NCBI GenBank assembly: GCA_023247445.1 | Contig: JAHFGL010000018.1 | Location: 1-43,213 of the forward strand | Direction: 5' to 3' | Source of the DNA: Candidatus Omnitrophota bacterium | GTDB lineage: Bacteria > Omnitrophota > Gorgyraeia > Zapsychrales > Zapsychraceae | Length of the DNA: 43,213 nt | In this document: positions 23,640 through 29,692 of the stretch, in pieces | Numbering within the stretch: the stretch's first letter is position 1 | Layout: each line of letters begins with the position of its first letter | Made by a program: the position numbers and the translations under genes | The notes under the pieces: generated by a model | What the model saw: only the letters and a program-made list of their open reading frames with translations | What the model was told of the DNA's origin: nothing | Database searches by the model: none

Positions 23640-25373
23640 ATGGCCCGATTAAAACTCGGTGAGATCCTCATCAAACAAGGACTCATTACAGAATCACAAC
23701 TTCTCAAAGCTATCGATCACCAGAAAAAAGAAAAAGGTCGTATTGGAGAAATCTTAATCAAGCTAGGCATGATTACTGAGGAACATATGGCCTCAGCGCT
23801 TGGTTCTCAATTAGGAATCCCCTATTATTCGTCGGAAAATGCAGAATTACTCCGCCCGTTACCAAATCAAGATTTAGAAAAGGTTATCCCCGCTGACTTT
23901 GCTCGTAAAAATTTCATACTTCCACTATCTAAAAATATGAATTCCCTGACCTGTGCGGTCAGTGATCCTCTTGATTTCTTAGCGCTTGATAATTTAAAAA
24001 GAATTGTTGGGGCAGAACTAAATTTGGTTCTCGCAACCAAAACAGCCATTCAAAAAGCAATTAATGATTTTTATGTAGGCGATGTCCGCTCGGCTCCAGC
24101 TACCACGATTTTGACTCCAGAAGAAACTACTATACAGAAAAAGGACGAAGCAATTGCCTCGTCAGTAAGACAACGCGTAGCTTCTTCAGAATTAAGTCTT
24201 GATAAACTTATCGAAAAAGCTGGCGAAGCGCCTATTATTAAACTCGTTGATCTTATTATCCGTCAAGCCATTGAAGAAAGGGCCAGTGATATTCACATCG
24301 AGCCTTTTGAAAATAAAGTTCATTTACGTTACCGTATTGATGGAAATTTATATGATGTTCCCCCACCAGCTGCCCATTTAAATTTGGCTATTGTTTCCCG
24401 TATTAAAATTATTGCAAAACTCGACATTGCCGAAAAAAGATTGCCGCAAGATGGCGCTATCGCTATCAAAATTGATGATCGTATGATTGATTTACGTGTT
24501 TCAACAGCTCCCACCATCTGGGGAGAAAAAGTTGTTATGAGAATTCTTGATAAAGGGGCCGTGTCTTTGGAATTGGGACCCTTAGGCTTTGATCAAAAAC
24601 AAATTGATACGATACGCAAAGCTCTCAAATTGCCGTATGGTTTATTTTTCGTAACAGGGCCGACGGGAAGTGGAAAATCAACAACCCTATATGCGGCGTT
24701 GACGGAAACAATTGATCCCACAAAAAACATCATGACAGCGGAAGATCCTGTTGAATATAAAATCGAAGGAATTAATCAAGTCAACGTTAAATCGGAAATC
24801 GGATTAACCTTTGCCACCGCCTTAAAGGCTTTTTTACGACAAGATCCTGATATTATCATGGTAGGGGAAGTTCGAGACATTGAGACAGCATCCATTTGTG
24901 TACGAGCGGCCTTAACAGGACACTTTGTTTTAAGTACCCTTCATACCAACGATGCCGCCTCGGCCATCACACGACTTATTGACATTGGCATACCCAATTA
25001 TCTTTTGACACCGTCTTTGGTCATGATTGTTGGTCAACGTTTAGCCAGGCGCCTTTGTCAAAAATGTAAAGACCCTTACGAGCCGACTCCCGACCAACAT
25101 GGAAATATAAAATTCGAAAGCGATCTTATTTACCGACCCAAAGGATGTGAGGCTTGTAATGGCTCAGGATTCCGAGGACGCGTTGTTGTGGCCGAAGTTC
25201 TCTTAGTCACGGAAGATATTAAAGCCATTATCTCCCGAGGAGGAACCTACACAGAAATTAAAGATGCCGCGCGCAAAAGTGGAATGACAACAATTTTTGA
25301 ATCTGGAATAAAATTAGTTAATAAAGGCTTTACCAGTTTCGAGGAAATCTGTAGAGTTAGCACCGAAGACTAG
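23640..25373 (+). CDS. GspE/PilB-family assembly ATPase with N-terminal MshEN-like domain
   Basis: Walker A GPTGSGKSTTLYAAL, Asp box DPIIMVGEVRD-like (DPDIIMVGEVRDIETA), CQKCKD...CEACNGSGFRGR; N-terminus RLKLGEILIKQGLITESQLLKAIDHQ...GRIGEILIKLGMITEEHMASALGSQLGIPY. Confidence 0.96.
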   Translation: MARLKLGEILIKQGLITESQLLKAIDHQKKEKGRIGEILIKLGMITEEHMASALGSQLGIPYYSSENAELLRPLPNQDLEKVIPADFARKNFILPLSKNMNSLTCAVSDPLDFLALDNLKRIVGAELNLVLATKTAIQKAINDFYVGDVRSAPATTILTPEETTIQKKDEAIASSVRQRVASSELSLDKLIEKAGEAPIIKLVDLIIRQAIEERASDIHIEPFENKVHLRYRIDGNLYDVPPPAAHLNLAIVSRIKIIAKLDIAEKRLPQDGAIAIKIDDRMIDLRVSTAPTIWGEKVVMRILDKGAVSLELGPLGFDQKQIDTIRKALKLPYGLFFVTGPTGSGKSTTLYAALTETIDPTKNIMTAEDPVEYKIEGINQVNVKSEIGLTFATALKAFLRQDPDIIMVGEVRDIETASICVRAALTGHFVLSTLHTNDAASAITRLIDIGIPNYLLTPSLVMIVGQRLARRLCQKCKDPYEPTPDQHGNIKFESDLIYRPKGCEACNGSGFRGRVVVAEVLLVTEDIKAIISRGGTYTEIKDAARKSGMTTIFESGIKLVNKGFTSFEEICRVSTED

Positions 25374-25393: not shown

Positions 25394-26689
25394 TTGCCAA
25401 AATTTTCTTGTGTTGTCAAAGATAAAGAGGGAAAAGCCTATAAATATGTTGTCGATGCCCCCACTCAAAAAGAGATAGTTGAAAAACTACAAAAACAAGA
25501 ATATTTTATTGTTAGTATTAAAGAAATTGTATCCGCCTCTTCAACTTCCCCAGCCAGCAAACAACAGCCGGCGATCGAGAAGAAAAGTCAGATTCAATTT
25601 AAAAATAAAAGAAAATTTAGTCACAATAAAACAAAGCTTGCTGATCTTTTGGTTTTCGCCCGTCAATTGGCAACCATGCTTGAATCAGGCGTTACATTGA
25701 CCCGCAGCTTAGATGTTATTCAATCACAAATTCAAAGTAAGCAATTTTTCAATGTTGTTGTTCAGGTTAAAAAAGATGTTGAGCAAGGCTTGTCTTTAAG
25801 TCAATCATTAGCCAAGCATCCCAAAGTTTTTAACCAATTTTGGATCAGTCTCAGTGAAGTCGGGGAAGCTTCTGGAACCATTCCGATTGTTTTAAACAAA
25901 TTAACTTTTTATCTGGAGCAACAGTCTTCATTTAAAGCGACCATTATTTCCGGAGTCTTGTACCCCATAATCTTGTTCACAGTTTCCATGGGAGCCGTTG
26001 TCTTTTTTGCCTTATTTGTTGGTCCACGTTTTGAATCTATATTTTCTTCAATGAATGTGGCACTTCCTTTAATTACGATTGTTCTTTTAGCTACTTTTAA
26101 GTTTATTAAAAGTAATCTCATCATTATCGTAGGAGTTTTAGCTGGCATCATTTTCTTTTTGGGTCAATATATCAAAACAAGTAGTGGTCGTATTGCCTTT
26201 GAAAGATTCTTATTTAATCTACCTACAGCCGGTGAAATCTTCAAACTTATCATCGTGGAACGATTTTCCTCTCAAATGGCGATTCTTTTAGATGCGGGGG
26301 TTCCGATTCTTTACGCGCTAGATATTTCAGAACGATTAGTTGATAACAAAATCTGCTCACAAATTGTCAACAATATAAAGGAAGACGTCCGAAAAGGAGA
26401 GCTATTGGTATCCCCCATGGAAAAAAGTGGATTTTTTCCTCCTATGTGTATTCAAATGATTATGGTAGGTGAGGAGACAGGTGAGTTAAGTAAAATGCTA
26501 AAACATGTTGCTAAATTTTACCAAACTGAAGTTGAAACGTTTATGAAACGTTTTGCCACCATCATTGAACCATTTATGCTTGTTTTTATGGGTTTTGTCA
26601 TTGGAACCATTGTTCTGGCAATGTTTTTACCATTATTTAATATTGCCCAACTTGGGGGTGGGACTGGAGCCGGCCCAGCTCCTCAATAG
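25394..26689 (+). CDS. GspF/PilC-family inner-membrane platform protein (TTG start)
   Basis: LLVFARQLATMLESGVTLTRSLDVI; FWISLSEVGEASGTIPIVLNKLTFYLEQQ; MIMVGEETGELSKMLKHVAKFYQTEVE; AAAGGAG before TTG. Confidence 0.95.
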   Translation: MPKFSCVVKDKEGKAYKYVVDAPTQKEIVEKLQKQEYFIVSIKEIVSASSTSPASKQQPAIEKKSQIQFKNKRKFSHNKTKLADLLVFARQLATMLESGVTLTRSLDVIQSQIQSKQFFNVVVQVKKDVEQGLSLSQSLAKHPKVFNQFWISLSEVGEASGTIPIVLNKLTFYLEQQSSFKATIISGVLYPIILFTVSMGAVVFFALFVGPRFESIFSSMNVALPLITIVLLATFKFIKSNLIIIVGVLAGIIFFLGQYIKTSSGRIAFERFLFNLPTAGEIFKLIIVERFSSQMAILLDAGVPILYALDISERLVDNKICSQIVNNIKEDVRKGELLVSPMEKSGFFPPMCIQMIMVGEETGELSKMLKHVAKFYQTEVETFMKRFATIIEPFMLVFMGFVIGTIVLAMFLPLFNIAQLGGGTGAGPAPQ

Positions 26690-26798: not shown

Positions 26799-26827
26799 TT
26801 GACAATCTAAATTTAGTGTGTTATACA
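26799..26827 (+). promoter_or_regulatory. sigma70-type promoter candidate TTGACA-N17-TATACA driving the riboswitch leader
   Basis: TTGACA 26799-26804, TATACA 26822-26827; predicted +1 about 26834, just 5' of the aptamer. Confidence 0.7.
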
Positions 26828-26848
26828 TTCTGTAGAAAGAAGTTTAGA

Positions 26849-26961
26849 GGTTATTGCAAAACGTAAACTACCCGTAAGGGTAGGACACAAAGCTATAAGG
26901 GCCCTAGCATTAAGGGATTTAAATATAAAAAAGTTGTTAGGGTAGCCAGTTGCCATTAGCC
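26849..26961 (+). ncRNA. c-di-GMP-I (GEMM-I) riboswitch aptamer
   Basis: GGUUAUUGCAAAACGUAAA-CUACCC-GUAA-GGGUAG-GACACAAAGC-UAUAAGGGCCCUAGCA...UGUUAGGG-UAGCCAGUUGCCAUUAGCC: P1 GGUUAUUGCAA/UUGCCAUUAGCC, GNRA-capped stem CUACCC/GGGUAG, conserved GGACRCAAAGC, second stem CCCUAGCA/UGUUAGGG, conserved GUAGCCAGUUGCC. Confidence 0.92.
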
Positions 26962-26974
26962 AAATTATTGTGGA

Positions 26975-27007
26975 CCTATTCTACGGGATGTGTGGAATGG
27001 GTTTTTT
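26975..27007 (+). terminator. rho-independent terminator, probable riboswitch expression platform
   Basis: CCTATTCT (26975-26982) / GGAATGGG (26994-27001) followed by TTTTTT, immediately after the aptamer. Confidence 0.8.
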
Positions 27008-27036: not shown

Positions 27037-27093
27037 TTGACACAAGAACTCCACAGAAGTAGCAAAAGTAGCTTCTGGAGCTTTTGTGGGTAT
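27037..27093 (+). pseudogene. decayed 3' fragment of a pilin gene inside the riboswitch leader
   Basis: Colinear with the 3' end of 27156-27581: TCCACAG and GGAGCTTTTGTGGGTAT occur in both at the same spacing (20 nt between) and at a constant offset of 481 bp. Confidence 0.65.
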
Positions 27094-27155
27094 GCAGCAA
27101 AGAAAAGTAGTTATTAAATTATTAATGTTGAGTATAAAACAAAAGGAGCAAAGAA

Positions 27156-27581
27156 ATGAATCTTAATAAAAAAAGTGGTTTTACCTTACTTGAAATTATC
27201 ATTGTTATCATCATTGTAGGTGTTTTAGCAAGTTTGGCTCTACCTCGATTCTTCAGTACAGTTGAGTTTTCAAGAAGTACTGAAGCTTTAACCTCGATGA
27301 CAGCCTTAAGACAATCTCTAGAAAGATGCTACCTAGCTAACGCTGGAAGCTATACTGGGACAACTCCTTGTCTTATTACTAATCTCGATCTTGAAGATCC
27401 AGGTACTTCTCCTGGAAATCACTTTACTTATACTATTTCGGGGCAATCTGCAACCGGGTATACAGTTTTAGCAACAAGAAATACACGAGATGGTGGATCC
27501 GCGACTGGTAAAATTACGTTAACACAGACATCCACAGGCGTAACACGAACAGGTGAAGGAGCTTTTGTGGGTATCAAATAA
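27156..27581 (+). CDS. type IV pilin-like/major pseudopilin
   Basis: KKSGFTLLEIIIVIIIVGVLASLALPRFFSTVE: canonical prepilin G|FTLLE motif; CYLANAGSYTGTTPC disulfide-like pair. Confidence 0.92.
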   Translation: MNLNKKSGFTLLEIIIVIIIVGVLASLALPRFFSTVEFSRSTEALTSMTALRQSLERCYLANAGSYTGTTPCLITNLDLEDPGTSPGNHFTYTISGQSATGYTVLATRNTRDGGSATGKITLTQTSTGVTRTGEGAFVGIK

Positions 27582-27655: not shown

Positions 27656-27691
27656 TAGATAAAAATAGAAGTTGAGGTGGGTAACCAAATT

Positions 27692-28090
27692 ATGCTTCGA
27701 AATACTTACAATAAACACTCAGAAAATGCTTTTACACTTATGGAGATCATTATTGTTATTATTGTTGTTAGCTCTATTGTTTCCATGGCCTTGCCAAGAT
27801 ATTTTAGTAGTACAGAAAAAGTAAAATCATCCGAAGCCTTCCAAATTCTTGATGTTTTACGTAGTGCACAAGTTGCGTTTAAGGCTGAAACTGGTGGCTA
27901 TGCCAACAGTGCCTCCAGCTTAGATGCTACTGTCCCAACTTCAAAAAACTTTGACCCCCCAACCGTCAGCACGACCGATCCTATTGTAAGCATCGTACGA
28001 AAAAGTTCATACACTTTAAATATCTTTGAGAATGGAACCATTACTTGTACGGGAGGAGCTGCTGGCTTATGTACAAAGCTGGGTTATTAA
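27692..28090 (+). CDS. type IV pilin-like/pseudopilin with Ala(-1)
   Basis: MLRNTYNKHSENAFTLMEIIIVIIVVSSIVSMALPRYFSSTEKVK; ATG at 27692 chosen over the in-frame GTG at 27677. Confidence 0.85.
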   Translation: MLRNTYNKHSENAFTLMEIIIVIIVVSSIVSMALPRYFSSTEKVKSSEAFQILDVLRSAQVAFKAETGGYANSASSLDATVPTSKNFDPPTVSTTDPIVSIVRKSSYTLNIFENGTITCTGGAAGLCTKLGY

Positions 28091-28101
28091 AGCTAAAAAT
28101 T

Positions 28102-28560
28102 ATGAATAAAAAAATGAAAGCTGGATTTACCTTATTAGAAATTATTATTGTCGTGGTTCTTTTGGGAATCATTGCAGGATTTGCTCTACCTAACTACCAA
28201 AAATCTATTCGTAAAGCCCACGAAAGAGATGCGATCGTACAACTCTCTTCGTTACACGCAACTAATTTAATGTACAACGCACAAGATGGTGGATTTTTAC
28301 CAGGGACTCTAGATATAACAGGAATCAATACTGGATTAGGAATAAATATTATCGCCAATGGTATGACATACGCTTATGTAGCCGGGGCCTCAAAACCAAC
28401 AACATTTTCCGCAACCGCAGTTTGGGATGAAAGTGGGACAACGAATGATTTTACAGCTCGTATTAATGAAAAACCCATCGATCCCACCAATGCCACAGCA
28501 GCGAATAGAAATCCATGCTGTTTTGCTGGAACTTGTCCATCTCTTTTAAATTGCTCTTAA
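28102..28560 (+). CDS. type IV pilin-like/pseudopilin
   Basis: MNKKMKAGFTLLEIIIVVVLLGIIAGFALPNYQKSIRKAHERDAIVQL; ORF-track start at 28045 overlaps the preceding gene. Confidence 0.9.
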   Translation: MNKKMKAGFTLLEIIIVVVLLGIIAGFALPNYQKSIRKAHERDAIVQLSSLHATNLMYNAQDGGFLPGTLDITGINTGLGINIIANGMTYAYVAGASKPTTFSATAVWDESGTTNDFTARINEKPIDPTNATAANRNPCCFAGTCPSLLNCS

Positions 28561-28581
28561 AGTAAAGGAATTACGCCAGCG

Positions 28582-28920
28582 ATGCTACGAATTCAAAAAA
28601 AGAAGGGGGCAGCTTCAATGATCGAAGTTATTATTTCCGCAATTATTTTTATCATCGCGACCTACGGAATCCTAACAACAATTTCAATGATGCGTCCCCA
28701 GAGTGGCGAGTCAGCAAGAAAGTTAGCGGCTGCTTATATAGGGAAACAAATGCTTGATGATTTACGCGGAAAAGTTGATGGCCGGACCTGGGACAGCGTC
28801 AATAGTGACTTAACTGTTGGGAACCATAATCGCACGATTGGTAACTACTTTGTAGCTTGGACAGTTGTAAACACAAGTGGAGGAAATCTGCGATACGTTA
28901 ATATGACAATCGATTATTAA
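28582..28920 (+). CDS. PilV/GspI-like minor pseudopilin
   Basis: MLRIQKKKGAASMIEVIISAIIFIIATYGILTTISMMRP. Confidence 0.78.
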   Translation: MLRIQKKKGAASMIEVIISAIIFIIATYGILTTISMMRPQSGESARKLAAAYIGKQMLDDLRGKVDGRTWDSVNSDLTVGNHNRTIGNYFVAWTVVNTSGGNLRYVNMTIDY

Positions 28921-28940
28921 GGCTACTGGTTAAATAAAAT

Positions 28941-29549
28941 ATGTCAAATAAAGGTATGACCTTAACAGAGCTTATCGTTTCTAGCATCCTCGTTGGTATT
29001 GTGATGGTAGGGATTGCTTCGTTTAGCTCGGCAATCAAACAAATTCAAACGACAAATGAAAAATCAACGCTTCTTGAAATACGAACCGCTGCCGCTATTA
29101 ACCACATTAGAAGAAGTGCTGTTCAAGCTGTAGGTTACCAAGATGATCCTGGGATAATCACCTCAGCAACAGGGGCTTCACCAGCCTATTTTTCTTTTCG
29201 CCAAGATCGAAACAATACTCCCAATAATTTTAGCGATGATACATGGGTCATCTATTCCGATGGTGGAATTGCTGGTCGAATGTATACCTGCACTCAAGAC
29301 GCAACAGCTGGTCCCGTTCCAAATTCGGGTATAGGTGGGGGTTGCGCCATTGCGACAAATTTAACCTTGTTACAAAATATTTCAACAATAAGCTATAGTC
29401 GAGTAACTGACGACGCTAGCTCAAATTTAAATCTTTATTTTGAAATAAATCTAACCACAATGGACGATATTTCCAAACCTTACCACCCTGTTAATAATCC
29501 CAAATATACCGTCAATACACGCATTATCCCACCTTCTCATAGCTGGTAA
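28941..29549 (+). CDS. PilW/GspJ-like minor pseudopilin
   Basis: MSNKGMTLTELIVSSILVGIVMVGIASFSSAIKQIQ; G|M-T-L-T-E prepilin motif. Confidence 0.82.
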   Translation: MSNKGMTLTELIVSSILVGIVMVGIASFSSAIKQIQTTNEKSTLLEIRTAAAINHIRRSAVQAVGYQDDPGIITSATGASPAYFSFRQDRNNTPNNFSDDTWVIYSDGGIAGRMYTCTQDATAGPVPNSGIGGGCAIATNLTLLQNISTISYSRVTDDASSNLNLYFEINLTTMDDISKPYHPVNNPKYTVNTRIIPPSHSW

Positions 29550-29619: not shown

Positions 29620-29692
29620 GGGTCGGTAGCTCAGCTGGGAGAGCGTCTGGTTCGCAATCAGAAGGCCGCGGGTTCGATCCCCGCCCGATCCA
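29620..29692 (+). tRNA. tRNA-Ala, anticodon CGC
   Basis: GGGTCGG...CCGATCC acceptor with G3.U70, anticodon arm TCTGG-TTCGCAA-TCAGA, T-arm GCGGG-TTCGATC-CCCGC, discriminator A; no encoded CCA. Confidence 0.97.

Follow-up and report, generated by a model that had tools for sequence, protein, structure and literature searches.

In a Candidatus Omnitrophota MAG (2.29 Mb, 95.6% complete), a complete leader separates a gspF-like gene (5') from the first of several pilin-like genes (3'). Coordinates refer to the window, the whole stretch of 43,213 nucleotides that was analysed; the leader occupies positions 26799-27007 and is composed of a promoter, an RF01051 aptamer and a terminator. The first-pass annotation had interpreted it as a c-di-GMP-I (GEMM-I) riboswitch controlling pilin and pseudopilin genes. 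The neighboring genes of the cluster are as follows.

23640-25373, + strand: PilB/MshE-type ATPase with an MshEN domain (Pfam MshEN, E=4e-17; motif KLGEILIKQGLITESQL), upstream in the same cluster
25394-26689, + strand: gspF/pilC-like gene (Pfam T2SSF), ending just before the riboswitch unit
27156-27581, + strand: first regulated gene, a type IV pilin (N_methyl, ComP-like; Pfam)
27677-28090, 28045-28560, 28582-28920 and 28941-29549, + strand: further pilin/pseudopilin-like genes (N_methyl match for 28045, sub-threshold for 28941; prepilin-like N-termini in the others)

The first-pass reading that the leader controls pilin genes holds up. The first pilin begins at 27156, and an orthologous pilin follows every leader. 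The genes within 27677-29549 are probably carried on the same transcript as the first pilin. A tRNA gene (29620-29692; RF00005, 66.2 bits) lies directly 3' of the pilin cluster.

The class of the element was assessed with covariance models. The first-pass annotation had expected an RF01051 match at about 26849-26961, and a significant one was obtained at 26852-26957, well above the gathering cut-off of 35 bits. The elements of the promoter and aptamer are listed below.

26799-26827, + strand: promoter, by direct reading (TTGACA at 26799-26804, 17-nt spacer, extended -10 TATACA at 26822-26827)
26852-26957, + strand: GEMM-I (RF01051) aptamer (cmscan 53.1 bits, E=1e-7; own covariance model 65.3 bits)
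26862, + strand: equivalent of Vc2 G20, here C (Rfam alignment position 11; family-alignment column 11; ungapped against the orthologous leaders)
26863-26888, + strand: P1b pairs G21-C46 (26863/26888) and U22-A45 (26864/26887), enclosing P2 (36-aptamer pair counts, base identities checked)
26868-26883, + strand: P2 hairpin, CUACCC GUAA GGGUAG, with a GNRA loop
26889, + strand: equivalent of A47, the ligand-stacking adenine, retained (alignment)
26953, + strand: equivalent of C92, retained (alignment), a predicted ligand contact

The GNRA-capped CUACCC/GGGUAG stem was present as annotated, and with it the G21-C46 and 22-45 pairs and A47-A49, so that all of these GEMM-I features were found in the window. 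In Vc2 the base-pairing partner of C92 is a guanine of the ligand. Judged by its sequence, the window element is a genuine, conserved GEMM-I riboswitch. In the class, at least one RF01051 aptamer is present in 96 of 118 sampled genomes, and about 367 were counted in all. The window genome has 10 RF01051 matches above the cut-off as well as weaker ones, some of which are fragments of insertion-bearing aptamers. The weak, split matches at G000:C10:49305-49462 and G000:C34:21704-21865 (L011-L013, L015) are aptamers interrupted after P2 by a G+C-rich inverted repeat, and comparable interruptions at J2/3 or P3 occur in the orthologous pilin leaders L223, L231, L240, L237 and L234.

Conservation of the leader was examined in 32 relatives, in which the locus was located with the GspF protein, and with a covariance model (R1) built from family aptamers. 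By the R1 model an aptamer adjoins gspF in 17 of 26 gspF loci, the window included; of the other nine, several lie at contig ends. The search for the same leader in relatives that the first-pass annotation had suggested thus returned every element, as the promoter-aptamer-terminator-pilin unit, with its terminator conserved, recurs downstream of gspF in 16 relatives. A pilin with a GFTLLEIIIVIIIVGVLASLALP-like start lies 3' of the leader in all 17 loci. The TTGACA-N17-TATACA promoter was confirmed at its annotated coordinates, although it was absent from the output of a simple promoter scan of the window because that scan demands that the -10 hexamer end in T. The call therefore rests on conservation among the 17 loci, 16 of which have TTGACA and 15 of which have it with the 17-nt spacer. 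A second aptamer in the genome, with G20 (L006, G000:C10:118100-118178), lies between a paralogous gspF and another pilin and is followed by a P2-pairing terminator of like kind.

The first-pass annotation had read position 20 (Vc2 numbering) as the G of CGUAAAC and had drawn its preference for c-di-GMP from that base. This reading was wrong. The conserved nucleotide order in Vc2, G20-x-C22-A23-x-A25 (PMC3764141), fixes the register, and in the window string A-A-A-A-C-G-U-A-A-A-C it is C26862 that is position 20, followed by G21, which is paired with C46, and by U22. The register is supported by agreement of the pair columns, as the 21-46 pair is G-C in all 36 family aptamers and the 22-45 pair is C-G in 18, U-A in 13 and U-G in 5; position 11 of the Rfam model is likewise followed by two pairs, G21-C46 and 22-45. 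A G at position 20 was rejected, as it would break both G21-C46 and U22-A45. The window aptamer accordingly has neither the G20 of the canonical c-di-GMP-I subclass nor the A20 of the cGAMP riboswitch (GEMM-Ib).

Position 20 is G in 15 of the 17 leaders, U in L219 and C in the window only. Because G20 predominates, C20 looks like a derived state within the leader group, on the evidence of a single MAG from a genus without a second genome to confirm C26862. Selection on RNA pairing was considered as a cause of C20 and rejected, since 26862 lies outside the antiterminator and terminator pairs.

We then considered the expression platform. The annotated terminator was present with its U6 tract, but its stem comprises 14 bp when G-U pairs are counted, not 8 bp, and its 5' arm is shared with a predicted antiterminator.

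26972-27007, + strand: intrinsic terminator (14-bp stem at 26972-27004, G-U counted; 5-nt loop; U6 at 27002-27007)
26871-26890, + strand: antiterminator 5' strand (P2 5' side, tetraloop, P2 3' strand and J2/3 through A48; folding and covariation)
26968-26987, + strand: antiterminator 3' strand, which shares bases with the 5' arm and loop of the terminator (folding and covariation)

In the predicted antiterminator, CCCGUA-A-GGGUAGG-A-CACAA (26871-26890) pairs with UUGUGGACCUAUUCUACGGG (26968-26987), giving roughly 18 bp that consume P2, the P2 loop, C46, A47 and A48. When the growing transcript was folded, the aptamer fold was best for 3' ends up to 26986, the antiterminator was the minimum-energy fold only for 3' ends of about 26988-26998 (with a 3.6 kcal/mol advantage at 26988-26994), and aptamer plus terminator was best from 27000 (by about 5 kcal/mol at 27004-27007), these energies taking no account of Mg2+, tertiary contacts or kinetics. 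A further hairpin region at 27049-27094, between the terminator and the first pilin start, might affect mRNA stability or translation.

The antiterminator was also supported by comparison. In the 17-sequence alignment, 93.0% of antiterminator cells were paired, versus 37-52% with slid partners. Two-sided changes numbered 9 versus 2.6 in shuffles (0 of 500 as high) and the covariation score was 0.198 versus 0.148 (0 of 500 as high), although the 17 loci are related and the shuffle statistics overstate their independence. The P2-loop helix alone gave p=0.0007 by whole-arm permutation, and covarying examples of this helix include UCUGCA/UGCAGA in L220 and CUCGUA/UACGAG in L234. Of the 17 loci, 15 were predicted to form the same transient antiterminator, as were 5 of 6 further family leaders whose terminator is of the same type. 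When the 17 loci were folded, the antiterminator was never the minimum-energy fold in orthologues L219 and L226, and the terminator was not in the full-length minimum-energy fold of L220 and L237.

By folding and covariation, then, the terminator fits with the aptamer and the antiterminator fits with neither, which is the arrangement of a transcriptional OFF switch. The first-pass annotation had named neither a direction of control nor an antiterminator. Ligand binding should most likely promote termination ahead of the pilins in this model, because the aptamer is compatible with the terminator while the antiterminator destroys the aptamer; a ligand-bound aptamer would exclude the antiterminator, which consumes P2, its loop, C46, A47 and A48. 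Control in the opposite direction, with ligand preventing termination, is known from the cGAMP riboswitch of Geobacter pilM, and the related pilM loci there are ON switches (PMC9262584). For the window we regard an ON switch as barely credible: no base belongs to both aptamer and terminator, the two occur together in the full-length minimum-energy fold, and the covarying alternative pairing destroys the aptamer and not the terminator alone. The ON reading was rejected on this lack of overlap.

The OFF switch that we prefer would work as follows. With little ligand, the emerging terminator 5' arm and loop would invade P2 and form the antiterminator, which also pairs C46, A47 and A48; RNA polymerase would then pass and the pilins would be made. 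A cyclic dinucleotide, most likely c-di-GMP, would lock the aptamer and make P2 unavailable, so that the 14-bp terminator could form and the pilins would be off. Relative to the G20 orthologues, C20 would lower affinity or shift selectivity, with C92 and A47 still holding the ligand. Taken as a whole, we consider it likely that a GEMM-I OFF switch with its own promoter controls the pilins of this MSHA/type-IV-pilus-like cluster, that c-di-GMP is its likeliest ligand, and that C20 has one of these two effects.

The occurrence of C20 elsewhere bears on its effect. When 85,488 species genomes were scanned with a sequence pattern for C20 aptamers, at least 119 loci were obtained, most of which were confirmed by R1. 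After deduplication at least 106 C20 aptamers remained (two alignments), and C92, which the search pattern did not require, was kept in 104 of 106 among the matches listed. Hosts among these matches include Omnitrophota, Paenibacillus, Saccharibacillus, Geobacteraceae, Anaerolineae, Actinoplanes and Sabulitectum, among others, and tandem C20 and G20 GEMM-I arrays before one gene were seen at L152, L070, L109, L113, L174 and L184. The genes just 3' of C20 aptamers include adhesin, chemoreceptor, GGDEF and sortase families, which are typical targets for GEMM. In Omnitrophota itself C20 is rare: the 118 genomes gave 5 matches to the pattern that also had a P2 hairpin, versus the approximately 367 aptamers. 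No DNA similar to the feature was found in the phage collection, and the C20 pattern matched 12 loci in viral contigs, where none of the 10 scanned with Rfam was a riboswitch.

We next weighed the ligand. Ten GGDEF domains were found in the genome, with Asp at the selectivity residue in nine and Asn in one; Asp marks diguanylate cyclases and Ser/Thr the Hypr enzymes (PMC9140294). No Ser/Thr Hypr GGDEF was present among the 10 GGDEF proteins, and no SMODS cyclase was found, in this 95.6%-complete genome, so that neither type of cGAMP synthase expected of a genome with a cGAMP riboswitch was seen. A DisA-type domain (c-di-AMP) is present. The Asn protein, L253 (G000:C27:18962-19411), is a GAF-GGDEF protein that also has GY for GH, and its nucleotide choice is possibly altered. 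In C. difficile Cd1, the G11C change, equivalent to G20C, keeps c-di-GMP binding (PMC9262584). Because C92 and A47 are kept, neither a Hypr GGDEF nor a SMODS cyclase was found, the orthologues have G20 and Cd1 G11C still binds, c-di-GMP is the most likely ligand as judged from sequence, and affinity or specificity may be altered. The annotated preference for c-di-GMP thus survives on grounds other than G20.

An OFF switch whose C20 has moved its preference to 3',3'-cGAMP, a cyclic dinucleotide carrying adenine at its alpha position, or has made it promiscuous, is in our judgment unlikely. From the base edges, C20 could suit such an adenine: on its Watson-Crick side, the N4-H donor and N3 acceptor of C would match N7 and N6-H on the Hoogsteen side of adenine, in the way that A20 does. 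Position 20 has been described as influencing selectivity without being a strict filter (PMC9262584), and the breadth of C20 aptamers, their retained C92 and their tandem arrangement with G20 would suit such a switch, as would the Asn of L253 and the two A20 aptamers of the window genome. Against it stand the absence of both cyclase types noted above and the G20 of nearly all orthologous leaders. The A20 aptamers are L001:1501-1587 (G000:C23) and L010:1501-1575 (G000:C10), although this genome yielded no Ser/Thr Hypr GGDEF. Aptamers that resemble L001 appear to form a group, delimited by sequence resemblance alone, whose members differ at position 20: the window genome has A, G006 (L017) has C and others have G.

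Position 20 contacts the ligand in Vc2. For mutation of Vc2 G20 a loss of binding of up to 30,000-fold has been quoted (PMC4744006), and for these two reasons the window copy might have lost much or all of its function. A decaying riboswitch that senses nothing at physiological levels, its terminator acting as a fixed attenuator, would also agree with the variation of orthologues at key positions (U20 in L219; U92 in L228, L221 and L234). We consider such decay improbable, more so than altered selectivity, as the rest of the window copy is intact in sequence, including the promoter, P2, P3, A47, C92 and the antiterminator, and as C20 aptamers that are otherwise conserved occur in many phyla.

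We can tentatively suggest, though with considerable doubt, that C20 GEMM-I aptamers are a third natural subclass of specificity or affinity beside G20 (c-di-GMP) and A20 (cGAMP), spread across Omnitrophota, Paenibacillus, Saccharibacillus, Chloroflexi, Geobacteraceae and others. Many, in tandem with G20, would read two ligands or concentration ranges, and the window pilin switch would be a recent conversion from G20. In the literature searched, from which the original studies of cGAMP-type and variant riboswitches were missing, no description of a C20 GEMM-I subclass was found.

With this locus, control of pili by a cyclic-dinucleotide riboswitch is placed in an uncultured phylum that has received little study. 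Compared with known GEMM-I elements (RF01051; Vc2, Cd1), the window riboswitch has the same fold, P2/P3, GNRA loop, G21-C46, A47 and C92, but its position 20 is C where Vc2 and Cd1 have G. Like Cd1, it has OFF logic: the aptamer can form alongside the terminator, and both compete with an antiterminator. The antiterminator of Cd1 takes the P1-forming 3' strand (PMC9262584), whereas in the window the loop and 3' strand of the P2 hairpin are used. What is unusual in the window riboswitch is the natural C20 state together with this P2-based antiterminator: the expression platform dismantles P2 itself, and position 20, known for its role in selectivity, recurs in a third natural state. With the cGAMP riboswitch of Geobacter pilM (GEMM-Ib) it shares the aptamer family, a location in a pilus cluster and a position 20 that is not G, but that base is A in Geobacter and C here, and the Geobacter element is an ON switch, in which aptamer and terminator exclude each other (PMC9262584), whereas those of the window are compatible. 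Finally, the cluster resembles systems in which MSHA-type pili are regulated via MshE/MshEN, as it also encodes an MshEN ATPase, a secretin and PilM-like, PilO and GspF-like proteins. MshEN is a c-di-GMP-binding family. Because the cluster has both this ATPase and the riboswitch, c-di-GMP could, by sequence, act at two levels, on the MshEN ATPase and on the pilin mRNA; to MshE-type regulation the window adds an RNA switch before the pilin genes.
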